A stretch of DNA of 45,684 bases. Source: a virus. The first letter of the stretch is position 1; each line of letters opens with the position of its first letter. The notes under the pieces are model-generated. The model had not been told where the DNA came from. It was given only the letters and a program-made list of their open reading frames with translations, and ran no database searches. The stretch spans positions 1-45,684 of IMG/VR virus record IMGVR_UViG_3300034117_002487, one strand, 5' to 3'. This document shows, one piece after another, positions 5,594 to 33,076 of the stretch. The position numbers and the translations under genes were made by a program.

Positions 5594-6823
5594 ATGCAAG
5601 TATTTGAAGGGGCCCAGGGTGGGCTCATAAAGGCCTGGGTCGACGGAGTGCCCGTTGAAGACCAGGCTCGGCAGCAGCTTGACAATATCGCGAGCATGCC
5701 CTTTATCCACAAGCACGTGGCCATCATGCCTGATGTGCATTGGGGTATGGGTGCTACGGTCGGCTCGGTTATCCCCACCAAAGGGGCGATCATCCCGGCA
5801 GCCGTTGGCGTCGATATTGGCTGCGGCATGATGGCTCATCGCACCAGTCTCACGGCCTCGGACCTCCCTGACAACCTGTCCGGCTTGCGGACGGCAATCG
5901 AGGAGGCCATTCCGCATGGTCGGACTGACAATGGTGGGCGAAATGACCGGGGGGCTTGGGGCGAGCTTCCGACTGAAAGCAACTGGCTCTTCACTGGTGG
6001 TGTCCCCAGCCTCCACTCTGGCCTTCGACGGATTGTCGACAAGCATCCCAAGATCGAGCGGGCGGCGGACCGAGCGGTCCACCATCTCGGCACCCTTGGC
6101 ACGGGCAATCACTTCGTCGAGGTATGCCTGGATAAGCAGGATCGTGTGTGGATAATGCTGCACTCTGGTTCGCGCGGTATTGGCAACCGCATTGGGTCCT
6201 ACTTCATCGAACTGGCGAAGCAGGATATGCGCAAGTGGTTTGTGAACCTGCCCGACGCTGACCTGGCCTACCTGCCTGAAGGCACTGAGCACTTTGCCGA
6301 CTACATGGAGGCGGTAGCGTGGGCACAACGCTTTGCCCGCACCAATCGTGAAGTCATGATGCGGGCGGCCATGAGTGCCTTGGCCAAGGCCGTGCCCAAG
6401 CCCTTCTCCGTTGACGAGGAAGCGGTGAACTGTCACCACAACTACGTGTCTCACGAGCGGCACTTCGGAGCAGATGTGCTTGTGACGCGCAAGGGTGCGG
6501 TGTCCGCAAAGGAGGGCGAGCTTGGCATCATACCCGGCAGCATGGGCGCTCGATCCTTCATCGTCCGCGGCAAGGGCAACCGTGAGAGCTTCTGCTCGTG
6601 CTCCCATGGTGCAGGCCGAGCAATGTCCCGCAATGAAGCGCGCAAGCGGTTCACGCTGGAAGACCATATTGCGGCCACTGAAGGGGTCGAGTGCCGCAAG
6701 GATGAGGACGTCATCGATGAGACGCCCGCAGCCTACAAGTCGATCGACGCCGTTATGGCTGCACAGGCTGACCTCGTCGAGGTGGTCTATGAGCTCCGCC
6801 AGGTTGTATGCGTGAAAGGATGA
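5594..6823 (+). CDS. rtcB: RtcB-type RNA-splicing ligase
   Basis: 409 residues, full family length. RtcB joins RNA 2,3-cyclic phosphate or 3-phosphate ends to 5-OH ends using GTP and Mn2+. Visible motifs: DVHWGMGATVGSVIPT (47-62), VGVDIGCGM with the metal-binding Cys (71-79), GTGNHFVEV, HSGSRGIGN, and the guanylylation motif HGAGRAMSR near the C-terminus. Start supported by AAAGGAGA. In phages it probably reseals tRNAs cut by host anticodon nucleases. This phage also encodes a tRNA and a tmRNA, so RtcB fits an RNA-maintenance programme. The gene overlaps the ligase start. Confidence 0.95.
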   Translation: MQVFEGAQGGLIKAWVDGVPVEDQARQQLDNIASMPFIHKHVAIMPDVHWGMGATVGSVIPTKGAIIPAAVGVDIGCGMMAHRTSLTASDLPDNLSGLRTAIEEAIPHGRTDNGGRNDRGAWGELPTESNWLFTGGVPSLHSGLRRIVDKHPKIERAADRAVHHLGTLGTGNHFVEVCLDKQDRVWIMLHSGSRGIGNRIGSYFIELAKQDMRKWFVNLPDADLAYLPEGTEHFADYMEAVAWAQRFARTNREVMMRAAMSALAKAVPKPFSVDEEAVNCHHNYVSHERHFGADVLVTRKGAVSAKEGELGIIPGSMGARSFIVRGKGNRESFCSCSHGAGRAMSRNEARKRFTLEDHIAATEGVECRKDEDVIDETPAAYKSIDAVMAAQADLVEVVYELRQVVCVKG

Positions 6824-7977
6824 TGGAAGACATGACAGTGGCCATGATGAAGGTCCTCTTCAAAAAGGACGCGAACGGAAGCATGCGGACTTGGCAGGTG
6901 GAGCGCGAATGCGTCAACGCCCGCTATCGTGTGCATCACGGGGTTCTTGGCGGCGCGACCGTCACAACCGGGTGGGTGAATGTGCAGGGCAACACCTTGC
7001 GGTCCCCTTCAGAGCAATGCGCCTCCGAGGTTGAAGCCCTCTACAAGCACAAGCTCAAGACGGACTATTTCGACAGCCAGGTCGAGGCCATGGCCGGACC
7101 TCGGCACCTTGAGCCCATGCTTGCCAAGGGGTGGGACAAGATTGGCAAGAAGTTCGGCATGCCGTGGGAATGGATACTCCAGCCCAAGCTCGATGGCATT
7201 CGATGCTTGGCCAAGGCCGACGGATGCTTCTCCCGCAGCGGGGAGAAGTTCCTGACCACCGGCCCGATTGAGGAAGCTTTGCGCCCCCTGTTCGAGGCCA
7301 ACCCGGACCTGGTGCTCGACGGCGAGCTCTACAACCATGAGTTCCACGATCGGTTCAATGAGCTCTCGGGGCTGATCCGGAAGGGGATGAATGCCAAGAC
7401 CCCTCCGACAGTCGAGGAACTGTCCATGGCGCACTCTGTCATGCAGTATCACGTCTATGACATGCCGAGCCATCCCGGAGAACAAGACGAGCGGGCACGT
7501 GAGCTGGTAGAGCTGGTCCATGAGGTCCATCCCTTGCTCTTCTATGTGGATACCTGGGACTGCTCGAGCGAGGAGCGGGCAGACGAGCTCTATGAGCGCT
7601 GGCTGCAGGAAGGGTATGAGGGGATGATGTATCGACGCAAGTCAGCCCTCTACCAATACGGCAAACGGCCGTGGGACCTGCTCAAGCGCAAGCAGTTCGA
7701 GACTGCGGAGTTCCGCATCAAGCGGATCGAAGAAGGCGAAGGCGACTGGAAGGGCAGGGCCAAGCGCATCGTGTTCGAGTGGCATGATGGCCGCGAGTTC
7801 GGCTCAGGTCTTCGTGGCGATCGCGACGGGTTCTGCAAGAAGCTTTTCGACGATTGGGTTCTCGGCGAGTGCGAGTATGAAAGCGCCACTGTGCGTTACA
7901 TGCCTCCACCCGAAGGGGCCGTGCCGCGGGTAGCCGTGGCTATTGATTGGCATGGCAAAGACGGAAGGACAGACTAG
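6820..7977 (+). CDS. ATP-dependent DNA ligase with WGR-like N-terminus
   Basis: About 385 residues. The start overlaps the rtcB stop (ATGATGG); in-frame ATGs at 6808, 6823 and 6832 are alternatives. Residues about 10-85 resemble a WGR domain (LFKKDANG, then TWQVE and a Gly-rich stretch), a DNA-end-binding module. The catalytic part has motif I KLDGIR with the adenylated Lys at about 123, motif III LDGELY at about 166-171, motif IV EGYEGMMYRR and motif V LLKRKQF. It would seal nicks in phage replication and repair. The C-terminal OB domain appears present. It ends convergent with the minus operon, overlapping by 4 bases. Confidence 0.9.
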   Translation: MMEDMTVAMMKVLFKKDANGSMRTWQVERECVNARYRVHHGVLGGATVTTGWVNVQGNTLRSPSEQCASEVEALYKHKLKTDYFDSQVEAMAGPRHLEPMLAKGWDKIGKKFGMPWEWILQPKLDGIRCLAKADGCFSRSGEKFLTTGPIEEALRPLFEANPDLVLDGELYNHEFHDRFNELSGLIRKGMNAKTPPTVEELSMAHSVMQYHVYDMPSHPGEQDERARELVELVHEVHPLLFYVDTWDCSSEERADELYERWLQEGYEGMMYRRKSALYQYGKRPWDLLKRKQFETAEFRIKRIEEGEGDWKGRAKRIVFEWHDGREFGSGLRGDRDGFCKKLFDDWVLGECEYESATVRYMPPPEGAVPRVAVAIDWHGKDGRTD

Positions 7978-16461: not shown

Positions 16462-16490
16462 TATACAATCCAGGATTTCCTAGGCATAAT
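16462..16490 (+). promoter_or_regulatory. Promoter of the tmRNA-tRNA unit
   Basis: TATACA (16462-16467), 17-base spacer, CATAAT (16485-16490). The -35 box is a variant of the TTTACW boxes elsewhere; TTTACT (16455-16460) is also present but 24 bases from the -10. Predicted start near 16497, just before the tmRNA acceptor piece. Confidence 0.6.
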
Positions 16491-16510
16491 ATAAAAGTGA
16501 ACTGTTTGAC

Positions 16511-16563
16511 TTTAGGTCGGCAGCTTGCGCAAGACCGGGGTGCAACTCCCCGCACCTCCACCA
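16511..16563 (+). ncRNA. ssrA: Permuted tmRNA, acceptor piece
   Basis: Upstream half of a circularly permuted tmRNA gene. T arm: CGGGG (16536-16540), loop TGCAACT, CCCCG (16548-16552). Acceptor 3-prime strand CACCTCC (16553-16559), discriminator A, encoded CCA at 16561-16563. The acceptor strand pairs with GGGGGTG at 16627-16633 and places a G3-U70 pair, the alanine identity element recognised by AlaRS. The 5-prime end is an estimate. The mature RNA is expected to be in two pieces, as in alphaproteobacteria. Confidence 0.85.
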
Positions 16564-16626
16564 TCTGCTGCGGTTTGAGGCGCTCGCCTCTTCCCGTCGT
16601 CCTGGCCTTAGGCCGCAGCAGTTGAC
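16564..16626 (+). ncRNA. Intervening segment of the permuted tmRNA precursor
   Basis: 63 bases between the CCA end and the 5-prime acceptor strand. CTGCTGCGG and CCGCAGCAG close a 9-bp stem that continues the acceptor stem and brings both halves together; CGAGCGCCTC-type pairing lies inside (GAGGCG with CGCCTC). This segment is removed in mature permuted tmRNAs. Confidence 0.7.
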
Positions 16627-16816
16627 GGGGGTGAACTAGGATCGATTGCGTCGGCGAGGATTTGGATAGGTTCACGGCATGGCTGCCTTATAGGCCAAAA
16701 ACGTAAATGTCAACGATAACGACATGTTCGAGGACGTCCGCCTCGCCGCGTAAGCGGTGACCTGACGTTTGTTCGATCTGCGGTATGGGTTCCACCGTAT
16801 CACCCAACGGACCCAT
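16627..16816 (+). ncRNA. ssrA: Permuted tmRNA, coding piece with degradation tag
   Basis: Begins with the acceptor 5-prime strand GGGGGTG, followed by GAACTAGGATCGATTGCG, the tmRNA D-region consensus. The tag reading frame is at 16694-16753: (A)KNVNVNDNDMFEDVRLAA then TAA. It ends in -RLAA, a ClpXP-type degron, and contains Asn-Asp-Asn as in alphaproteobacterial tags. A helix ATGGGT-CC / GG-ACCCAT (16785-16816) lies downstream. The exact 3-prime end cannot be set by eye. Confidence 0.85.
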
Positions 16817-16823
16817 TTCACTC

Positions 16824-16921
16824 CCTACCGGGGTGGAGGAGCGCATTGCAATGAGACGGCTTTATGCCTACGAATGTTGCAAGTGTTTCCGACCACCACG
16901 GTGCCCCTCCATCTCGGTAGG
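16824..16921 (+). ncRNA. Unidentified structured RNA candidate
   Basis: A 16-bp helix (16824-16839 with 16906-16921, two G-U pairs, no mismatch) encloses 66 bases containing further short helices (GGC-TTTAT-GCC; two TTGCAA copies). It lies between the tmRNA coding piece and the tRNA. It could be the 3-prime part of the tmRNA coding RNA, a processing domain or a separate small RNA. No protein is encoded here. Confidence 0.55.
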
Positions 16922-16930
16922 CAGTGATTA

Positions 16931-17007
16931 CAGGGCGTAGCGCAGTCTGGTAGCGTGTGCGGTTTGGAACCGTGAGGTCGTAGGTTCAAATCCTACCGCC
17001 CTGACCA
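16931..17007 (+). tRNA. tRNA-Pro (anticodon UGG)
   Basis: Full cloverleaf: acceptor stem CAGGGCG / CGCCCTG, D arm with CTGGTAGCG, anticodon arm TGCGG-TTTGGAA-CCGTG giving anticodon TGG, T arm GTAGG-TTCAAAT-CCTAC, discriminator A and encoded CCA. UGG can read all proline codons by wobble. It is the only tRNA in the window and shares the transcript with the tmRNA. Confidence 0.95.
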
Positions 17008-19712: not shown

Positions 19713-19757
19713 TTGAGGGACGATAGCCTTAGAGGCTATCGTCCCTCAATGCTTATT
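19713..19757 (+). terminator. 16-bp perfect hairpin, terminator and start-codon hairpin
   Basis: TTGAGGGACGATAGCC (19713-19728), loop TTAGA, GGCTATCGTCCCTCAA (19734-19749), followed by TGCTTATTT. It ends the lipoprotein transcript. Its last base is the A of the polymerase ATG, so the same structure touches the next start codon. Confidence 0.8.
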
Positions 19758-21989
19758 TCACCCTCCAAAGAGACCTACACGCCGCCTTTGCTGCCGCGTG
19801 CGACCATCGACTTTGAGACGAGGTCGGCTTGTGACATTAAGCGTTGTGGGAGCTGGATATACTCCCTGCATCCTTCAACGGAAGTCATGTGCCTTGCTAT
19901 CATGCTCCCAGGCTGGCATGACGCAGAGCTGTGGCACCCTGCCTATCCTTATCTTGGGATTGAGGAAGAAGGCCGCGAACACCTGCAAGCCCTGTTCGAT
20001 TATCTGGCCAAGGCCGACTCTCTGGTTGAAGCCCACAACGCGTTCTTCGAAGTGGGTATTTGGGAGAACATATGCGTCCCCATCCTCGGCTGGCCTTCAA
20101 TCGATCGTAGCAAGTGGCGTTGCTCCGCAGCAAAGGCTGCTGTCCACGCCCTTCCGAGAGACTTGCTGAATGCCTGTCTTGCCATGGACGTCGCCGAGAA
20201 GAAGGACGACGAGGGCAAGAAGATCATGCTCAAGGTGAGCAAGCCGCGTAAGGCCTTGAAGGCTGAACGCCAGTCACCAGGCTTTGACCCCAACCGCATT
20301 TTGTGGCATGAGACGCTGGAGCTTTTCCAGAAGCTGTGGGATTACTGCCGCCAAGACACCAAGGCAGAGCATGCCCTGTCCTCCGCGCTGGCTGACCTCT
20401 CGGATGAAGAGCAGCGGGTGTGGCTCATGGACTTGCAAATGAACTGTCGTGGCATCCGCGTTGACCTGGACATGGCCAAGGCAGCTCTTGAGCTTGGTGA
20501 CCAATACTGCACCCAGCTTAATCGCGAGCTTCGGGACATAACGAGTGGCGAGGTCGAAATGGCCAGCTCTCGTGTGAAGCTCAAAGACTGGGTGAACCGG
20601 CAAGGAGTAGCCCTGCCAGATACCACAGCCGCAACTATTGAAAAGTTCAAGGCCTTGAAAGGCCTGCGCGCTGACGTCCACCGCGTCTTGCATATCTGCA
20701 AGGAAGTCAATCAGACTTCGACCGCGAAATACCAGACGGCTATTCTCCAGGCTTCGTCTGGCGATCATCGCCTGCGCGGTCAGGTGATCTATCACGGTGC
20801 AGGCACTGGCCGTTGGGCCGGTAAGGGGTTGCAGCCTCACAATTTCAAGAAGGGTAGCCTTAAAGACCCAGACCTTGCCTGTGAAATTATCAAGCTGCGA
20901 GACCTCAACACCGTTTGTGCTCTATACGGTTCAGACGCTGTGATGGAGACGCTCTCCGGTGCGATCCGGGGCGTCATGATCCCCTCGGATGATCGAGAGA
21001 TGATAGTCGCTGACTTTGCGGCCATCGAAGCTCGGTGCGTCCTATGGCTTGCCCGTCAGATGAGCGCACTTGATGTGTTCTATCGCGGGGAAGACATCTA
21101 CTGCGACATGGCCTCGGGCCTTTACGGGCGGACAATCACAAAGAAGGACAAGGATGAACGTCAGTTTGGTAAGCAAGCTATTCTGGGTCTGGGTTTCCAG
21201 ATGGGCTTTGTCACCTTCCTCATCACCTGCGCCAAATACAATATCCGGTTCTCACCAGAGATGTGCAAGCGCATCGTTGGTGATGATTATGCGAGGCATG
21301 AAGAAGCGGTCAAGAAATACTTCACCGTGGGCAAGTTGGCCAAGCAGCGTCAGCACAAACTCAAGTATGGCACCAAGACCGCTCCCGGCCTTGACCAGGA
21401 TTGGAACGAGGTGGTCCATGAGCTGGTGCTGATGAAATACACCACGGAGAAGTATCGCGAGCGCTATCCTGAAGTGGCCACGATGTGGGACGATCAGGAA
21501 GCCGCGGCAATTGCAGCCGTGCGGTCACCAGGCCGTATTGTGGACGTTGTGCGTGGTCGCAATTCCTATGTCTTTGAGGGCCGCTTCCTCAAGATGATCC
21601 TGCCTTCAGGTCGTTGCCTGCATTATCCTGATCCGACCATCAAGATGAAGGCCGTGCCTTGGAACCCCGAGGAGTTTCGGCCTGAGCTGCGCTTCATGAC
21701 CAGTTTGCCCGGTGGCGGCTGGGTTCCAACAGGCACTTACGGCGGGATGCTGGTTGAGAACCTCACTCAGGCTACCGCTCGCGATCTAATGGCCCAAGCA
21801 ATGGTAAGGTGTGACGATCACCCCAAATATGATGTTCTCATGAGCGTGCACGACGAACTCATCGCGGAATGCCCAATTGGGGTTGGCAACGTGAAGGAGT
21901 TTGAGCAACTCATGGCCGAAACGCCGGCATGGGCACATGGTTGCCCAGTCGACGCCGAGGGGTGGATTGGAATGCGTTACCGCAAGTAA
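19749..21989 (+). CDS. DNA polymerase I family (PolA) with 3-5 exonuclease
   Basis: About 746 residues from ATG 19749; no Shine-Dalgarno is visible and in-frame TTG/GTG starts upstream lie in the hairpin. No 5-3 exonuclease domain. Exo I TIDFETRS (19-26, D21 and E23), exo II AHNAFFEVG, exo III YCRQDTKAEH. Polymerase motif A ADFAAIEARC, motif B KDERQFGKQAILGLGFQMG, motif C SVHDELIAE. It would be the replicative polymerase of the phage. The fingers motif is the phage-type variant of family A. Confidence 0.95.
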   Translation: MLISPSKETYTPPLLPRATIDFETRSACDIKRCGSWIYSLHPSTEVMCLAIMLPGWHDAELWHPAYPYLGIEEEGREHLQALFDYLAKADSLVEAHNAFFEVGIWENICVPILGWPSIDRSKWRCSAAKAAVHALPRDLLNACLAMDVAEKKDDEGKKIMLKVSKPRKALKAERQSPGFDPNRILWHETLELFQKLWDYCRQDTKAEHALSSALADLSDEEQRVWLMDLQMNCRGIRVDLDMAKAALELGDQYCTQLNRELRDITSGEVEMASSRVKLKDWVNRQGVALPDTTAATIEKFKALKGLRADVHRVLHICKEVNQTSTAKYQTAILQASSGDHRLRGQVIYHGAGTGRWAGKGLQPHNFKKGSLKDPDLACEIIKLRDLNTVCALYGSDAVMETLSGAIRGVMIPSDDREMIVADFAAIEARCVLWLARQMSALDVFYRGEDIYCDMASGLYGRTITKKDKDERQFGKQAILGLGFQMGFVTFLITCAKYNIRFSPEMCKRIVGDDYARHEEAVKKYFTVGKLAKQRQHKLKYGTKTAPGLDQDWNEVVHELVLMKYTTEKYRERYPEVATMWDDQEAAAIAAVRSPGRIVDVVRGRNSYVFEGRFLKMILPSGRCLHYPDPTIKMKAVPWNPEEFRPELRFMTSLPGGGWVPTGTYGGMLVENLTQATARDLMAQAMVRCDDHPKYDVLMSVHDELIAECPIGVGNVKEFEQLMAETPAWAHGCPVDAEGWIGMRYRK

Positions 21990-21999
21990 GGAGACTATA

Positions 22000-22392
22000 A
22001 TGCAAATAAAAGATGTGGACTTCGAGACCGTGGAACAGGCTGCGATCGCCGCCACTGTGGCCGAAGAGACTGAAAAGCCGGAACGCGTTCCCACCCACGT
22101 CAAGTCGTTCTATGCCAAGATGATGGGCATGCTCGATGAAAAGGGCGTCGAAGGCAATAGCCAGGCAGCCAAGTCTATGAAGGTGCTGGCCATCAAGGCG
22201 CAGTTGGCTCCGCGTCGGTCGGAACGGTTTGGTCGTCGCGATCGCCAGGCAGCAGTCAAGCGTCTGGTCGAAGAAGGCAAAATCTGTTCCCAGACGTGGC
22301 TGAACAACCCGCAATTGATGCTGTGGCTACCCTGCGCCAGTCCTTTGAGCATGCAGCATGACCTGGGCCGGTTTGACCAACGCAACCCCTGA
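22000..22392 (+). CDS. Hypothetical basic protein
   Basis: 130 residues after AAGGAG. An acidic N-terminus (1-30) precedes a basic helical domain (AAKSMKVLAIKAQLAPRRSERFGRRDRQAAVKRL) likely to bind nucleic acid, and a Trp/Pro-containing end. Unrecognised. It overlaps the next start by 35 bases. Being next to PolA suggests a replication accessory role, which is inference only. Confidence 0.65.
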   Translation: MQIKDVDFETVEQAAIAATVAEETEKPERVPTHVKSFYAKMMGMLDEKGVEGNSQAAKSMKVLAIKAQLAPRRSERFGRRDRQAAVKRLVEEGKICSQTWLNNPQLMLWLPCASPLSMQHDLGRFDQRNP

Positions 22393-22876
22393 GGAGCTCG
22401 CCCACGACCTGGGCGAGCTTCAAGCCTGGTCGCGAAAGATCATGGAGCGTAAGCCAGATGTCATCATTGGCGATGGCGGTGGAGATGATTACATGCTCCG
22501 CTGGTTTGTGATGCCTCGCACGGTGTTTGGCGGCGTCTATTTACACCGCTTCTTGCAATCAGACAAGGACGTCCCACACGATCACCCATGGGATAGCACG
22601 TCCGTGCTGATTGATGGGCAGTATGACGAAATGTTGTTTGATCGCGGGCTGAGCCTGCCCTATACGGTTCAGCGCGTGGCTGGCGACATCAATCACCGCA
22701 AGGCTGAGGAATGCCACCGGGTGGTTCTCACAAATGGACCCGCAACATCATTGTTCTTCTTTGGTCAGCGCCGTAGACAGTGGGGCTTCCATTGCCCAAT
22801 GGGTTGGGTTCGTTGGGACCTTTTCGTTGACGCTCGCGACAAAGGCCAGGTAGGATTAGGTTGCGGCGAGGGTTGA
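22358..22876 (+). CDS. Cupin-like protein
   Basis: 172 residues. The conserved core YLHRFLQSDKDVPHDHPWD with HxHPW, then a Gly-containing strand (LIDGQYDEM), a second His (EECHRVVL) and a final GFHCPMGWVRWDLF describe a double-stranded beta-helix (cupin) with a possible His metal site. Small cupins with this HDHPW signature are common in phages; their substrate is unknown. ATG 22442 is an alternative start that would avoid the long overlap upstream. Confidence 0.65.
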   Translation: MTWAGLTNATPEELAHDLGELQAWSRKIMERKPDVIIGDGGGDDYMLRWFVMPRTVFGGVYLHRFLQSDKDVPHDHPWDSTSVLIDGQYDEMLFDRGLSLPYTVQRVAGDINHRKAEECHRVVLTNGPATSLFFFGQRRRQWGFHCPMGWVRWDLFVDARDKGQVGLGCGEG

Positions 22877-26026: not shown

Positions 26027-26989
26027 GTGGAACCATTCGAGCAAATAGAGCAGTTCTACCGCAAGGTAGTGCAGCTCCCTATCCCGCAGACCCCCACCCG
26101 ATTGACGCATGCGCAGAAGCTCAGTGCTGTCGAGCATTGGGATGAGGAGCACAAAGAGTTTCTTGAGGCTGAGACCCTTGAGGATGAAATCGACGCCTGC
26201 ATCGATTTGGCCTGGCTCGCCCTTGGCCGCGTTATTGAAATGGGCGCTTCTCTCCCTGACCACTTTGCTGAAGTGGTGCGGGCCAATATGGATCGTGTGC
26301 CTGGCCGCAATCCAAAGCGTCCTCTCTCCACTGGCTTTGACGCCGTAAAGCCTGAAGGCTGGCGCGGCCCCGATCATACTGCCATCCTGGTTCGTCATGC
26401 TGCGGCTATGATCGAGGAAGGTATGACCGACGCCGGCAAGGCCACCCAGGTGCGCAAGCGGATCATCCTGGTTGGCCATGGCCGGCACGGCAAGGATACC
26501 GTGGCTGAAATGCTGCGCGATCGGTATGGCTACCGCTTCACCTCATCCAGCCTGTTCTGTGCCGAAAAGGTCATGCTGCCCCTTTTTGAATACGAAGCTT
26601 CCAAGTGGCTGAGCCAAGGGGTTCCAGTCTATGCGGATGCAGCTGAATGTTTTGCGGATCGCCACGGCAGCTCCGCCGTGGGCGATCATCGGACTTTCTG
26701 GTTTGAAGGTATCAAAGCCTATTGCATACCCGACAAGGCCCGCCTAGCCCGGGAAATCTTTGCTGAGCACGATATGTATGTGGGCATTCGTGACAGTGCT
26801 GAGCTCTTTGCTGCCCAGCAGCTGGGTAACGTCGTGACCATTTGGGTGGATGCTTCAAATCGCCTGCCACCGGAACAGGGCAGCTCGATGAATATCGAGC
26901 CGACCTTTGCGGACCATGTGCTGGACAACAACGGGACCCTTGAAAACCTGTCCGCCAACCTTGAACGTCTGATGGAGAACCTAGCATGA
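26027..26989 (+). CDS. MazG-type NTP pyrophosphatase fused to a dNMP kinase
   Basis: 320 residues from GTG 26027. N-terminal MazG-like all-alpha domain: WDEEHKEFLEAE (38-49) and DEIDACIDLAW (53-63), the acidic metal-binding pair, followed by GRVIEMG. Residues 100-140 form a linker. The C-terminal part has P-loop VGHGRHGKDT (149-158) and the phage dNMP-kinase pattern (TSSSLFCAEKVMLPLF, ending SMNIEPTFADHVLDN). One polypeptide could hydrolyse a dNTP to dNMP and phosphorylate a modified dNMP, the job of separate T4 gp56 and gp1. First gene of the nucleotide operon, overlapping the next by 4 bases. Confidence 0.75.
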   Translation: MEPFEQIEQFYRKVVQLPIPQTPTRLTHAQKLSAVEHWDEEHKEFLEAETLEDEIDACIDLAWLALGRVIEMGASLPDHFAEVVRANMDRVPGRNPKRPLSTGFDAVKPEGWRGPDHTAILVRHAAAMIEEGMTDAGKATQVRKRIILVGHGRHGKDTVAEMLRDRYGYRFTSSSLFCAEKVMLPLFEYEASKWLSQGVPVYADAAECFADRHGSSAVGDHRTFWFEGIKAYCIPDKARLAREIFAEHDMYVGIRDSAELFAAQQLGNVVTIWVDASNRLPPEQGSSMNIEPTFADHVLDNNGTLENLSANLERLMENLA

Positions 26990-27849
26990 GCATCGCGGCC
27001 ACCTTTGCTGCAACCGACGACTTCCACGCGGTTTACCGGACCTTGCTCTGGCGCCTGTTGTCAGGCCACGCAATCAAAGAAGTGAATGAGCGAACTGGGG
27101 CGGTCATCTTTGCCTCCCCGGTGCCCATCCACTTCAATCTCGACCTGCGCGACGGTCAGCTGCCTTTGTGTGGTATCCGCAAGACCTTCCCTCGGACTGC
27201 CGCGGCTGAAGTTGCCTGGTTCCTGCTTGGCTCAAAAGACGTCTCCTTCATCCGTGAGTATGCGCCCATCTGGGACAAGTTCGTGGAGGAGGACGGGACA
27301 ACCGTCGCTGGCGCTTACGGGCATCGTTGGCGGGAACACTTTGGCCGAGACCAGGTAGCCAAGGCCATCAAAGCTTTGCAGAACAACTCTACGGATCGCC
27401 GCGTAGTTGTGATGGCCTGGGACCCGGGCAGTGACGGGCTGGGCGTGCCGTCTAAGAACGTTCCGTGTCCACTTGGCTTTACATTGTCGATTGTGGACGG
27501 CCGGCTCAACTCTGCCATGTTCATCCGCTCCAGCGATGTGTTCGTGGGTCTGCCTTACGACGTGATGGGGCATGCTCTCCTTATGCAAGCAATTGCCAAT
27601 TCGATTGGTGGCCTGAAGGGTCTTGGCACCATGTCAGTCACTCTGGCGCACCCGCATCTCTATGATGTCCACGAACAGATGGCCCTTGAAGCACTCAAGT
27701 CGGAGCCATCCACTGATACTCGTTTGCTGCCGCCTTGGTCCGTGGAGCAGATTGAAGACGACCCGCACGGCTACGTGCTGAATGTTAAGCTGCTGTTTGC
27801 AGCTATGAAGCAGCCCGAGTATTCTTGTCGGCCGGAAGTGGTTGCATGA
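26986..27849 (+). CDS. Thymidylate-synthase-superfamily enzyme, predicted dCMP-type
   Basis: 287 residues. Clear ThyA fold: AGAYGHRWRE (108-117), TDRRVVVMAW (136-145), active-site Cys161 in NVPCPLGF, RSSDVFVGLP (181-190) and HLY (224-226). Two key differences: Asp192 in LPYDVMGHALL replaces the Asn that selects dUMP in thymidylate synthases, and Pro162 follows the catalytic Cys in place of His. T4 dCMP hydroxymethylase carries Asp at the same position. The product may therefore be a 5-methyl- or 5-hydroxymethyl-dCMP enzyme, or a dUMP hydroxymethylase. It overlaps both neighbours. Confidence 0.85.
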   Translation: MSIAATFAATDDFHAVYRTLLWRLLSGHAIKEVNERTGAVIFASPVPIHFNLDLRDGQLPLCGIRKTFPRTAAAEVAWFLLGSKDVSFIREYAPIWDKFVEEDGTTVAGAYGHRWREHFGRDQVAKAIKALQNNSTDRRVVVMAWDPGSDGLGVPSKNVPCPLGFTLSIVDGRLNSAMFIRSSDVFVGLPYDVMGHALLMQAIANSIGGLKGLGTMSVTLAHPHLYDVHEQMALEALKSEPSTDTRLLPPWSVEQIEDDPHGYVLNVKLLFAAMKQPEYSCRPEVVA

Positions 27850-28292
27850 CCTGCTCAACTAAATGGGATGCTCGGTTCATGCGGCTTGTCGAAGGCGAGC
27901 CTCTGAGCTGGTCAAGCATACCGGGCAAGGAGGGTGGCGCAGCCGCCCTCCTCGTCTCTCCGGATCGCAGGCGTATGTCCGTTGGGTATGCCGGGCTTCC
28001 TCGTGATGCCAGCGAGGATTTGGTGCAAGCCTGTAAGAGCATGGCTGTCTTCCGCGATCGGTTCTGCAGGCATGCTGAACGCAATGCCTTGTCAAACATC
28101 GACTGCGACGTTGCGGGATGGACAGCCTATGTGACGGCTCAGCCCTGCTTGCAGTGTGCTCTTGAGCTGCATGCTCGCAGAATTGCACGAGTGGTTTGTC
28201 GCCGCTTAAAGCCCGGCAGCCGGTGGACACAAGAATGCGAAGAGGCCAAGCAGTTCCTGGAAGATCATGGTGTGGAGTATGTGCTATGCTGA
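27846..28292 (+). CDS. dCMP deaminase
   Basis: 148 residues from ATG 27846, overlapping the previous stop. Zinc-dependent cytidine/deoxycytidylate deaminase motifs HAERNAL and PCLQCALEL (H-A-E and P-C-x-x-C). It converts dCMP to dUMP, so it competes with or feeds the adjacent TS-family enzyme. Basic residues follow the zinc site. The stop overlaps the next start by 7 bases. Confidence 0.9.
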   Translation: MTCSTKWDARFMRLVEGEPLSWSSIPGKEGGAAALLVSPDRRRMSVGYAGLPRDASEDLVQACKSMAVFRDRFCRHAERNALSNIDCDVAGWTAYVTAQPCLQCALELHARRIARVVCRRLKPGSRWTQECEEAKQFLEDHGVEYVLC

Positions 28293-28774
28293 GAGCCATA
28301 ATGGCGGTGAGTGCTGACGGGTTTGTGTGCAGTGGGCCTGATGACAACATGCGTTGGACAGGCAAGGCGGACAAGCGGCTTTTTCGTGAGCAGACCGATG
28401 GATGCGCCATTGGTGCGGGGACAACCACCTGGGAAGCCATGCGGGGTCTCAATCTGCTCGGCCGCACCCTTGTCCGCATAACCCGTGAACCGCGGGACCT
28501 GGCCTCTCCAGACGGGCCGAGTGAAGAGCTCGAAATGACACTCGGAGCCTTCGCCGAGAACTACCCCGACGGATGGCTTATCGGAGGACAGACGATGCTC
28601 CTCTCCGCGATCCAGGACGGTTTCGTCGATTGTGTCGTGCTGTCACACGTCACGGCGGAGCTCGGAGAAGGTGTGAAGGACGAGGTGAGCAGCTTGCTGC
28701 ATTCCTTGGGCTGGACCATGCGCTATTTTCCGATGGGCGACCTCAAGCTGGTGACTTGGAACCGTGGGGCCTGA
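28286..28774 (+). CDS. Dihydrofolate reductase
   Basis: 162 residues from ATG 28286; ATG 28301 is also possible. DHFR pattern: RAIMAVSADGFVCSG (3-17), MRWTGKAD with the Trp loop, GAGTTTWEAM near the NADPH site, and WLIGGQTMLL. It regenerates tetrahydrofolate, needed if the TS-family enzyme oxidises methylene-THF to DHF, a point in favour of a methylase rather than a hydroxymethylase. Coupled to the genes on both sides. Confidence 0.85.
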   Translation: MLRAIMAVSADGFVCSGPDDNMRWTGKADKRLFREQTDGCAIGAGTTTWEAMRGLNLLGRTLVRITREPRDLASPDGPSEELEMTLGAFAENYPDGWLIGGQTMLLSAIQDGFVDCVVLSHVTAELGEGVKDEVSSLLHSLGWTMRYFPMGDLKLVTWNRGA

Positions 28775-29222
28775 GGCTACTCTCTGGTCATGGCTGCGTC
28801 GAGGGTTGAAGCCCCTCGGCCAGCCACATGACGTCCACCGCATAGAGACGTCCACCGAAAGTGGCTATCCCGACGTGGAAGGCTGCATCAACGCCAACAC
28901 CTTTCTGGTTGAGCTCAAGGTGGCTCGAAGCATCCGCAAGAAAGACGGTTCCTTTTCTCTCGATCACTATCATGCAAAACAGGCTTACACCCTCTATCGT
29001 CGCTGGCAAGCGGGCGGTCGGTCCTGGTTGCTGGTGCGGTATCCTGGGTCAGATACTACGGGCAGACACTTCCTTGTGCCCGGTCGAGAAGCCCTTATAG
29101 TCCACGATGAGCGGATGAAATTGACCCTTGGCTTTATGCAGGCAGTTAGCTGGCCTGGCTTCGAAGACGGTCTGGCCAAGGCCGATAAGCTTTGGCAAGG
29201 TATTTCTGGTCCCATTGTTTAA
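28764..29222 (+). CDS. PD-(D/E)XK (VRR-NUC-like) endonuclease
   Basis: 152 residues from GTG 28764, overlapping the DHFR gene by 11 bases. Catalytic core ETSTESGYPDVEG and FLVELKVA (Asp, and Glu-x-Lys) followed by a His/Gln helix (HYHAKQAYTLYRRW). A small nuclease of this type may act as a Holliday-junction or structure-specific nuclease. Its position inside the nucleotide operon is odd for a recombination enzyme; degrading host DNA to feed dNTP pools is another possible role. Confidence 0.75.
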   Translation: MGPEATLWSWLRRGLKPLGQPHDVHRIETSTESGYPDVEGCINANTFLVELKVARSIRKKDGSFSLDHYHAKQAYTLYRRWQAGGRSWLLVRYPGSDTTGRHFLVPGREALIVHDERMKLTLGFMQAVSWPGFEDGLAKADKLWQGISGPIV

Positions 29223-30164: not shown

Positions 30165-31178
30165 ATGGCCGTAGGCCTACTTACCCCGTCCACAGGCTAC
30201 AAGCCTTTTCGTTACCCATGGGCCTACGAGTTTTGGAAGCGCCAGCAGCAAGTGCACTGGCTGCCTGAAGAAGTCCCACTTGGTGAGGATTGCAAAGACT
30301 GGGCGGACAAGCTCACTGCAAGTGAGCGACATTTTCTTACCCACATCTTCCGCTTCTTCACACAGGCGGACGTCGACGTCATGGACAACTATCAAGAGCG
30401 CTATGCTCGGAAGTTTAAGCCCATCGAGGTCAAGATGATGCTGGGGGCCTTCCAGAACATGGAGACCGTCCACGTCGCGGCTTACAGCCACCTGCTTGAC
30501 ACCGTGGGTATGCCTGAGACTACCTACAGCGAGTTCATGGACTACAAGGCCATGAAGGACAAGCACGATTATATGGACCAGTTTGGGATGAAGACCCACG
30601 CTGACGTGCTGACCACTCTTGGTATGTTCGGGGCATTCTCTGAGGGGCTGCAGCTGTTTGCCTCGTTCGCCATGCTGATGAACTTCCCGCGGCACAACAA
30701 GATGAAGGGCATGGGTCAAATCGTCTCGTGGTCGGTCCGGGATGAAAGCCTGCACTGCGAGGGGATCATAAAGCTATTCCATACCTTCGCCCACGAGACT
30801 GGTGCCTATACTGATGAGGTTCGTGAGCGGCTCTGGACGCACTGCGAGCAGGTGGTGCAGATGGAGGATGCCTTCATTGACCTCGCCTTCGAGATGGGAC
30901 CGCAGGAGAACCTGACTGCGGATGACATGAAGCGCTATGTCCGCTTCATTGCAGACTGGCGACTCATGCAGCTCGGGTTCAAGACGGGTGGCTCTGCCTA
31001 TGAAGGGCCCATGTTTGCCACTGACCAGCGCAAGAACCCACTGCCCTGGCTTCAGCCGCTGCTGTCCGGTGTTGAACTGGCTAACTTCTTTGAAACCCGT
31101 GCCACGGAGTATTCAAAGGCCAGCTCGACCGGTGACTGGCAATCCACATGGGCGATGTTTGATAAGAAGGTGAAGTGA
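30165..31178 (+). CDS. nrdB: Ribonucleotide reductase class Ia, beta subunit
   Basis: 337 residues after AGGAGA. Di-iron radical protein: first Asp in FFTQADVDVM, ETVHVAAY giving Glu-x-x-His and the radical Tyr four residues after His, then Glu in SEGLQLFASF and RDESLHCEG with the last Glu and His. All key ligands are present, so class Ia activity with the alpha subunit is expected. The C-terminal Lys-Val-Lys tail is short. Confidence 0.93.
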   Translation: MAVGLLTPSTGYKPFRYPWAYEFWKRQQQVHWLPEEVPLGEDCKDWADKLTASERHFLTHIFRFFTQADVDVMDNYQERYARKFKPIEVKMMLGAFQNMETVHVAAYSHLLDTVGMPETTYSEFMDYKAMKDKHDYMDQFGMKTHADVLTTLGMFGAFSEGLQLFASFAMLMNFPRHNKMKGMGQIVSWSVRDESLHCEGIIKLFHTFAHETGAYTDEVRERLWTHCEQVVQMEDAFIDLAFEMGPQENLTADDMKRYVRFIADWRLMQLGFKTGGSAYEGPMFATDQRKNPLPWLQPLLSGVELANFFETRATEYSKASSTGDWQSTWAMFDKKVK

Positions 31179-33076
31179 TGCAAGACTACTATTACACCCC
31201 ACCAGGGGCCGACGAGCCGACGCGGGATATTGCAATCGATCATGTGCGCAATACTCGGCTGACCGACTTTGGCCGGTCCACCCTGCATGAGCGATACCTT
31301 CTGCCAGATGAAACGCCACAAGAGCTGTTTGCTCGTGTGTCTTGTGCTTATTCGGATGACAGTGCCCACGCACAGCGGCTCTATGATTATATGAGCAAGC
31401 TCTGGTTCATGCCGGCCACTCCAGTCTTGTCGAATGGCGGAACTGTGAAGGGCTTGCCGATCAGTTGCTACCTCAACGAGGTGCCCGATGACCTGGAAGG
31501 CATTGTCGGGACGTGGGTCGAGAATGTGTGGCTTGCTTCCCGTGGTGGTGGGATCGGAACCTACTGGGGCAATGTGCGGTCGATCGGTGAGCCTGTTGGC
31601 GCGGTTGGAAAGACCAGTGGGGGTGTGCCATTCCAGGTGGTGCAAAACTACCTCACGCTGGCTATCAGCCAAGGGTCTCAACGCCGTGGGGCTGCGGCGG
31701 TCTATCTCGATGTGGGGCATCCGGAGATTGAGGAGTTCATGGAGCTTCGCAAGCCCAGTGGGGATTTCAACCGCAAGACTCTTTACCTGCATCACGGAGT
31801 GCTTATCCCTGATGCGTTCATGGAGCGGGTTCGGTCCGGTGGGGATTGGGAGCTTCGCAGCCCGAAGGACGGTAGCGTCCGCAAGGTCGTTTCGGCCCGA
31901 GAGCTGTTTGCTCGGCTCGTGGAGACACGGCTCCAGACGGGTGAGCCCTATCTGGTGTTCACCGACACCGTGAACCGTGCAATGCCGGCCTGGCAGCGGG
32001 ACCTTGGATTGCGGGTTACGACCAGCAACCTGTGCGCCGAGATTACTCTGCCCACTGGGAAGGATCATCTGGGTGAGGACCGCACGGCTGTCTGCTGCTT
32101 GTCGTCGGTGAACCTTGAAACCTGGGACGAGTGGAAAGACCATCCTCAGTTTGTCGAGGACGTCATGCGGTTCCTCGACAATGTGCTGCAGGACTACATC
32201 GACCGAGCCCCTCTCGAGATGCGAAAGGCTGTCTATTCAGCTACCCGTGAACGGTCTGTGGGCCTGGGTGTGATGGGCTTCCACTCGATGCTGCAAAAGC
32301 GTGGGGTTCTTATAGAGTCGGCCATGGCCAAGGCCTTGAACCGCAATATCTTCAAAGAATTGAAGACGCGGGTCGATGCAGCCAGTGAAAAGCTGGCTGT
32401 TGAGAAGGGTCCTTGCCCTGATTGGGTTGACGCCCACCGCGGGGCAACCTTTTCCACAAGCAGCGGTCCGAAGCCACAACGCTTTGCCTGCAAGATGGCT
32501 ATTGCCCCCACAGCATCCATCTCCATTATCTGCGGGGGTGCATCTGCGGGTATTGACCCTATCCCAGCCAATGTCTATACCCACAAGACACTCGACGGGT
32601 CTTTTGTGGTCAAAAATCCATACCTTGAGAAGGTGCTGCAAGTTCGGTTGGCTGATGCCGTCCACGATGAAGATGTGACCAAGGAAGACTTGCTGGAGCA
32701 TACGTGGGATAGCATTCTCGAGCATGGCGGCTCGGTGCAGCACCTCGGTTTCCTGTCCGAGCATGAGCGAGCCATGTTCAAGACGAGCTTTGAGCTCGAT
32801 CAGCGATGGCTGCTTGACTTTGCGGCAGACCGAGCGGCACACGTTTGCCAGTCACAGAGCCTCAACCTGTTCATCCCCGCAGATGTTGACAAGTGGGACT
32901 TGCTGATGCTCCACTGGAAGGCCTGGGAGATGGGCATCAAGTCTCTTTACTATCTCCGCTCGATGAGCTTGCAGCGTGCAGCACATGCTGGCGGAGTGGA
33001 AGCGGACAACACCCCGGAGAGGCCAGTGCTGCAGGTAGTGCCCACTGATTATGAGGAGTGTCTCGCCTGCCAATAA
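31178..33076 (+). CDS. nrdA: Ribonucleotide reductase class Ia, alpha subunit
   Basis: 632 residues from ATG 31178, one base overlapping the beta stop. Active-site Cys in PISCYLNEV, thiyl radical Cys in SNLCAEITLP, third Cys in CCLSSVNL, radical-transfer Tyr pair in KSLYYLRSMSL, and C-terminal redox pair CLAC. The N-terminus is short with no ATP-cone, so the overall on/off allosteric site is missing, as in many phage enzymes, which allows unrestrained dNTP synthesis. Works with the adjacent beta subunit to supply deoxynucleotides. Confidence 0.95.
   Translation: MQDYYYTPPGADEPTRDIAIDHVRNTRLTDFGRSTLHERYLLPDETPQELFARVSCAYSDDSAHAQRLYDYMSKLWFMPATPVLSNGGTVKGLPISCYLNEVPDDLEGIVGTWVENVWLASRGGGIGTYWGNVRSIGEPVGAVGKTSGGVPFQVVQNYLTLAISQGSQRRGAAAVYLDVGHPEIEEFMELRKPSGDFNRKTLYLHHGVLIPDAFMERVRSGGDWELRSPKDGSVRKVVSARELFARLVETRLQTGEPYLVFTDTVNRAMPAWQRDLGLRVTTSNLCAEITLPTGKDHLGEDRTAVCCLSSVNLETWDEWKDHPQFVEDVMRFLDNVLQDYIDRAPLEMRKAVYSATRERSVGLGVMGFHSMLQKRGVLIESAMAKALNRNIFKELKTRVDAASEKLAVEKGPCPDWVDAHRGATFSTSSGPKPQRFACKMAIAPTASISIICGGASAGIDPIPANVYTHKTLDGSFVVKNPYLEKVLQVRLADAVHDEDVTKEDLLEHTWDSILEHGGSVQHLGFLSEHERAMFKTSFELDQRWLLDFAADRAAHVCQSQSLNLFIPADVDKWDLLMLHWKAWEMGIKSLYYLRSMSLQRAAHAGGVEADNTPERPVLQVVPTDYEECLACQ

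Follow-up and report, generated by a model that had tools for sequence, protein, structure and literature searches.

One gene of the window (the whole 45,684-nucleotide stretch of IMG/VR virus record IMGVR_UViG_3300034117_002487 that was analysed) very probably encodes a phage enzyme of the Xp12 type, a dCMP C5-methyltransferase acting in a pathway to 5-methylcytosine (5mC) DNA. Full replacement of cytosine by 5mC in Xanthomonas phage Xp12 has been known since the 1970s. Both the chemistry and its phage are known already, and the window protein would be a further, divergent member, in a probable alphaproteobacterial phage.

The 287-amino acid product, which contains the motifs KNVPCPLG and RSSDVFVGLPYDVMGHALL (plus-strand translation), matched the Pfam family Thymidylat_synt (PF00303; 128 bits, E = 4.4e-37, cut-off 24.3) and PHROG 160 (E = 2e-52), and its top PDB matches by sequence were thymidylate synthases (TS). 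A TS fold is also predicted: in the model (pLDDT 86.9), residues 14–287 superpose on residues 1–264 of Escherichia coli TS (1tys), tail included, with Z 29.8 and rmsd 1.9. Translation gave Cys161 (codon 27466–27468), Pro162 and Asp192 (codon 27559–27561) in the contexts NVPC161-P162 and LP190-Y191-D192-V193-M-G-H-A-L-L, so that the gene boundaries and residue numbers of an earlier, sequence-only reading were correct. By alignment to E. coli ThyA, whose numbering is used below, Cys161 is C146, Pro162 is H147 and Asp192 is N177; the same reading had placed Asp and Pro where TS has Asn and usually His, and the alignment bears this out. Asn158, the remaining diagnostic residue, lies three before the catalytic Cys, at position 143, where ThyA has Leu. 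Glu58, Tyr94, Trp80, Arg21, Arg126/127, Arg166, Ser167, Asp169, His207 and Tyr209 are retained, and the last residues (...RPEVVA) line up with the tail of TS. Since catalytic and phosphate-binding residues are kept, the protein has the look of an intact enzyme rather than of a degenerate copy. In short, profile, fold, Cys nucleophile and catalytic set are those of the TS superfamily, whereas the Asn177 and His147 of a canonical TS are replaced.

Relatives were gathered by two peptide-pattern scans of IMG/VR, with patterns that exclude columns 177, 147 and 143, and by tblastn of phage records, where the closest matches were Bradleyvirinae. The subfamily alignment contains 53 sequences: 45 IMG/VR loci (some of them near-copies of one another), 7 named phages and the window. 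Identity of the relatives to the window protein ranges from 31 to 62% (about 50% for the named phages, 47% for AXL1). Asp177 and Pro147 occur together in 53/53 members, while the true TS rows have Asn177/His147. Because the pair is universal in relatives fetched by patterns lacking those columns, it is, as far as the alignment can tell, not a chance substitution. Asn143 is found in all aligned members except L062 (Ala) and L066 (Met), and three loci (L067–L069) have Asp177, Pro147 and Asn143 together with a complete TS tail that closes in VAI. A peptide-pattern search of bacterial genome contigs found no relative, and hence no prophage context.

Published Asn177 to Asp mutants shift TS towards dCMP, and a genome-phenome study found that positions 177 and 147 had the strongest association of any residues with phage contigs bearing modified cytosine; these contigs were enriched for Asp177 TS, PRA-PH and dCMP deaminase (PMC8670742). 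For hydroxymethylation, the signature described from the T4 gp42 ternary complex comprises an acid (Asp145) three before the Cys, which activates water, and a Ser/Thr (Ser94) two before the active-site Tyr; gp42 D145N forms zero 5hm-dCMP, and the TS C-terminal tail is absent from gp42 (PMC6400193). T4 gp42, SPO1 gp29, M6, PA_LZ03 and Montesquieu carry the acid in our alignment; ThyA, phage D6E, Virsaitis27, OLIVR1 and the window protein lack it. Taken together, positions 177 and 143 define the classes Asn177/Leu143 (ThyA; dUMP, methyl), Asn177/Asp143 (the M6 homologue and SPO1 gp29, whose role is that of its annotation, dUMP hydroxymethylase; dUMP, hydroxymethyl), Asp177/Asp143 (T4 gp42; dCMP, hydroxymethyl) and Asp177/Asn143 (the window protein and its relatives). 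The first two form one clade each in the TS tree (100/99 support); T4 gp42 and Huwbert gp67 sit on very long deep branches and were excluded from the argument. In every characterised case tested, few as these cases are, the two positions sort the superfamily by substrate and product, and a dCMP C5-methyltransferase would be expected to pair Asp177 with a residue at 143 that is not acidic. True TS has Leu at 143, and the Asn of the window protein might even so position a water. The Ser94 position was dropped as a second hydroxymethylase marker: it is Gly in the window protein, Ser in AXL1 and Thr in RDJL1, and with Ser or Thr in some relatives it does not sort cleanly. Microbacterium phage Huwbert has two adjacent TS homologues (L075, 1039–1890 and 1881–2684) plus a dCMP deaminase; one homologue is canonical (Asn177/His147), the other has Asp177/Thr147 with Arg at 143, and these genes possibly make up another dCMP-acting pair.

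The TS homologue belongs to a cassette of four overlapping genes (Table 1), in which the start of the deaminase gene overlaps the TS homologue stop (ATGA).

Table 1. Coordinates of the cassette and of other features of the window
Feature	Position	Strand	Basis or remark
RtcB RNA ligase	5594–6823	+	overlaps DNA ligase gene
ATP-dependent DNA ligase	6808–7977	+	
Two-piece (permuted) tmRNA gene, alphaproteobacterial type	16469–16844	+	tag VNDNDMFEDVRLAA followed by stop
tRNA-Pro(TGG)	16931–17007		adjoins tmRNA gene
Family A polymerase	19713–21989		proposed to insert 5-methyl-dC
Cupin-like protein	22358–22876	+	PHROG 4786 'cysteine dioxygenase'
MazG-like pyrophosphohydrolase (N-terminal) fused to P-loop kinase (C-terminal, GHGRHGKDT)	26027–26989	+	PF01503; PHROG 139; fold
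TS homologue, probable dCMP C5-methyltransferase	26986–27849	+	287 aa; PF00303, alignment, predicted fold
dCMP-deaminase family protein, HAE...PCxxC zinc motif	27846–28292	+	PF00383, E = 4.9e-11; PHROG 174
Dihydrofolate reductase (DHFR)	28286–28774	+	PF00186, E = 1.3e-7; PHROG 13578; overlaps deaminase gene
VRR-NUC-like nuclease	28764–29222	+	PHROG 2165 (family labelled DNA helicase there; nuclease is our reading)
Class I ribonucleotide reductase, small and large subunits	30165–33076	+	nearby dNTP supply, not specific to the TS finding

The first gene of the cassette matched PF01503 (E = 2.7e-7) and PHROG 139 dNMP kinase (E = 2.2e-10). Its kinase half is weakly assigned by sequence (DNMK 0.0036, below cut-off); by fold, the MazG half resembles DR2231 MazG and the other half small-molecule kinases, including T4 dNMP kinase (1dek). 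The deaminase-family protein is a candidate 5-methyl-dCMP/5-methyl-dCTP or dCMP deaminase, these specificities being indistinguishable in the deaminase alignment. It has GYAGLP where most relatives have GYNGFP or GYNGLP, so the Asn is lost with the zinc motif intact; the deaminases of L004, L005, L011 and RDJL1 likewise lack the Asn of GYNG.

Among the 45 IMG/VR loci, MazG was found near the gene at 43, the deaminase at 39 and DHFR at 33, several of the misses, including some of the 12 for DHFR, lying at contig ends. The order MazG–TS–deaminase recurs in DoCa5, PaMx74, AXL1 and Donnerlittchen (Bradleyvirinae) and in RcRudolph, RDJL Phi 1 and JWX, and DHFR accompanies it in all of the named relatives except JWX. 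Most relatives have a homologue of the nuclease gene at the corresponding position, regularly 3' of the cassette. Twelve Asp-type genomes, several of them possibly incomplete records, have one TS homologue and one deaminase each, and no ThyX was found in them. Directly 5' of the cassette, AXL1 and Donnerlittchen carry a gene of the HhH-GPD/EndoIII glycosylase family (L015, 2684–3166; L022, 3689–4159), which could repair G:T mismatches after 5mC deamination; none was seen in the window.

The sequence-only reading had called the site dCMP-type and likened it to T4 dCMP hydroxymethylase; the neighbouring deaminase and MazG-kinase genes had no place in it. Its preference for dCMP over dUMP fits the mutant data; the likeness to gp42 does not hold beyond membership of the superfamily, the Cys nucleophile and the shared Asp177. 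The acid whose change to Asn leaves gp42 without product is itself Asn in the window protein, Pro and not Thr follows the Cys, Gly stands at the Ser94 position and the TS-type tail is kept. A gp42-like enzyme leading to 5-hydroxymethylcytosine (5hmC) DNA is therefore very unlikely, even if sewage-phage Asp177 TS homologues co-occur with a carbamoyltransferase acting on 5hmC (PMC8670742): no glucosyl- or carbamoyltransferase family was found among the window proteins scanned, the nearest lineage of known DNA chemistry, Xp12, has 5mC, and DHFR in the cassette fits a methylase, since a methylase releases dihydrofolate (DHF) and a hydroxymethylase does not. The protein is better read as an Xp12-type dCMP methylase.

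Two other schemes would keep the enzyme in thymidylate synthesis. That 5-methyl-dCMP is solely an intermediate (dCMP to 5-methyl-dCMP to dTMP via the adjacent deaminase), with little or no 5mC in DNA, would agree with a single TS homologue coupled to a deaminase, with the lack of ThyX and, to judge by reference titles in PMC11946847, with Xp12 work on '5-Methyl-dCTP deaminase' and 'A new thymidylate biosynthesis'. We consider it still less probable, as Xp12 DNA has 5mC throughout, the DNA of AXL1, DLP4, PaMx28 and PaMx74 is restriction-resistant and a MazG-kinase gene suits the exchange of one nucleotide for another in DNA. Least probable of all is an ordinary TS using dUMP from a dCMP deaminase. 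The order TS–deaminase–DHFR resembles the textbook dTMP route, and the gene of relatives is annotated as TS in print (PMC9206674, PMC6469090, PMC11236537), but the invariant Asp177/Pro147 sets these proteins apart from true TS, and the single change to Asp is one that moves the enzyme to dCMP.

For the preferred methylase reading, the following route is proposed. Asp192 would pair with N3/N4 of cytosine and Cys161 would attack C6 of dCMP; the one-carbon unit would come from methylene-tetrahydrofolate (methylene-THF) and be reduced to methyl by the folate hydride, as in TS, giving 5-methyl-dCMP and DHF, the latter to be recycled by the neighbouring DHFR. The MazG-kinase protein probably removes dCTP and/or phosphorylates 5-methyl-dCMP, which would lead through 5-methyl-dCTP to 5mC DNA, with the family A polymerase inserting 5-methyl-dC in place of dC. 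Such DNA would block host restriction. The deaminase may tap the same methylated pool for dTMP/dTTP, methylation coming before deamination, or else supply dUMP. More tentatively, and with somewhat less than even confidence, we suggest that this methylate-first pyrimidine pathway, in which the 5-methyl-dCMP of one enzyme feeds both 5mC and, via the coupled deaminase, thymine, is spread through Bradleyvirinae, Xiamenvirus, Steinhofvirus and many uncultured phages. Because the active site fits and the four-gene set is common to close relatives of Xp12, we infer that the window phage probably replaces its cytosines with 5mC as Xp12 does. The modified cytosine foreseen by the sequence-only reading is in this way supported, also by the published association of positions 177 and 147 with cytosine-modified contigs (PMC8670742).

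Given its alpha-type tmRNA, the window phage probably infects an alphaproteobacterium; among the relatives, the stretches that were scanned showed no tmRNA gene. Alongside a phage-borne tmRNA and tRNA, RtcB may be an RNA-repair element. The cupin-like protein, for which neither a Pfam match nor a significant PDB match was found, was set aside as a 5mC oxidiser: its 65 phage relatives come mostly from mycobacteriophages, and their occurrence does not follow that of the cassette.

In the open papers searched the gene assignment is apparently unpublished; an earlier one may exist elsewhere, for instance in subscription papers or preprints. What appears to be new within the open literature is the tying of the Xp12 enzyme activities to a specific cassette, together with a two-residue rule against hydroxymethylases. 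Positions 177 and 143 would predict which uncultured phages have 5mC DNA and, should the methylate-first reading be true, many phages annotated with an ordinary TS would use that pathway instead. In Rhodobacter phage RcRudolph, a cultured member of the class, the prediction is open to direct test.

Among known systems, SPO1 gp29 and the M6/Yuavirus homologue share the superfamily with the window protein, and M6 belongs to Mesyanzhinovviridae, the family of the window's best matches. In a paper of 2025 the TS homologue is called a dUMP hydroxymethylase throughout Mesyanzhinovviridae (PMC11946847). SPO1 gp29 and the M6 homologue differ from the window protein, however, in having Asn177 with Asp143, in their separate clade and in having no recognisable TS tail. 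The closest parallel is Xp12 (Bosavirus; record MT664984), of the same phage subfamily as the window's best matches, with AXL1 as its stand-in in sequence comparison. Every cytosine of Xp12 is 5mC, and AXL1 is closely related to that phage; only 5 of 31 restriction enzymes cut AXL1 DNA, three of the five having A/T-only sites, and in 2022 the authors of the AXL1 study described the genetic basis of the modification as unknown (PMC9206674). DLP4 DNA is resistant to 36 enzymes (PMC6469090), and that of PaMx28 and PaMx74 has also been reported resistant. AXL1 and DLP4, both close relatives of Xp12, join the window-type cassette to restriction-resistant DNA, AXL1 with the order MazG, TS homologue, deaminase, DHFR and the same residue set as the window protein. 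Xp12-infected cells produce a THF-dependent dCMP methyltransferase (PMC8543423), and the same reaction, dCMP plus methylene-THF to 5-methyl-dCMP, is expected of the window enzyme, the link being drawn via AXL1. The 5-methyl-dCTP deaminase that a reference title ascribes to Xp12 would have its counterpart in the deaminase-family gene of the cassette. The two systems differ in that the MazG protein of the window has a kinase domain joined to it, which AXL1 MazG lacks, and in the probable host, which for the window phage, unlike Xp12, is an alphaproteobacterium.
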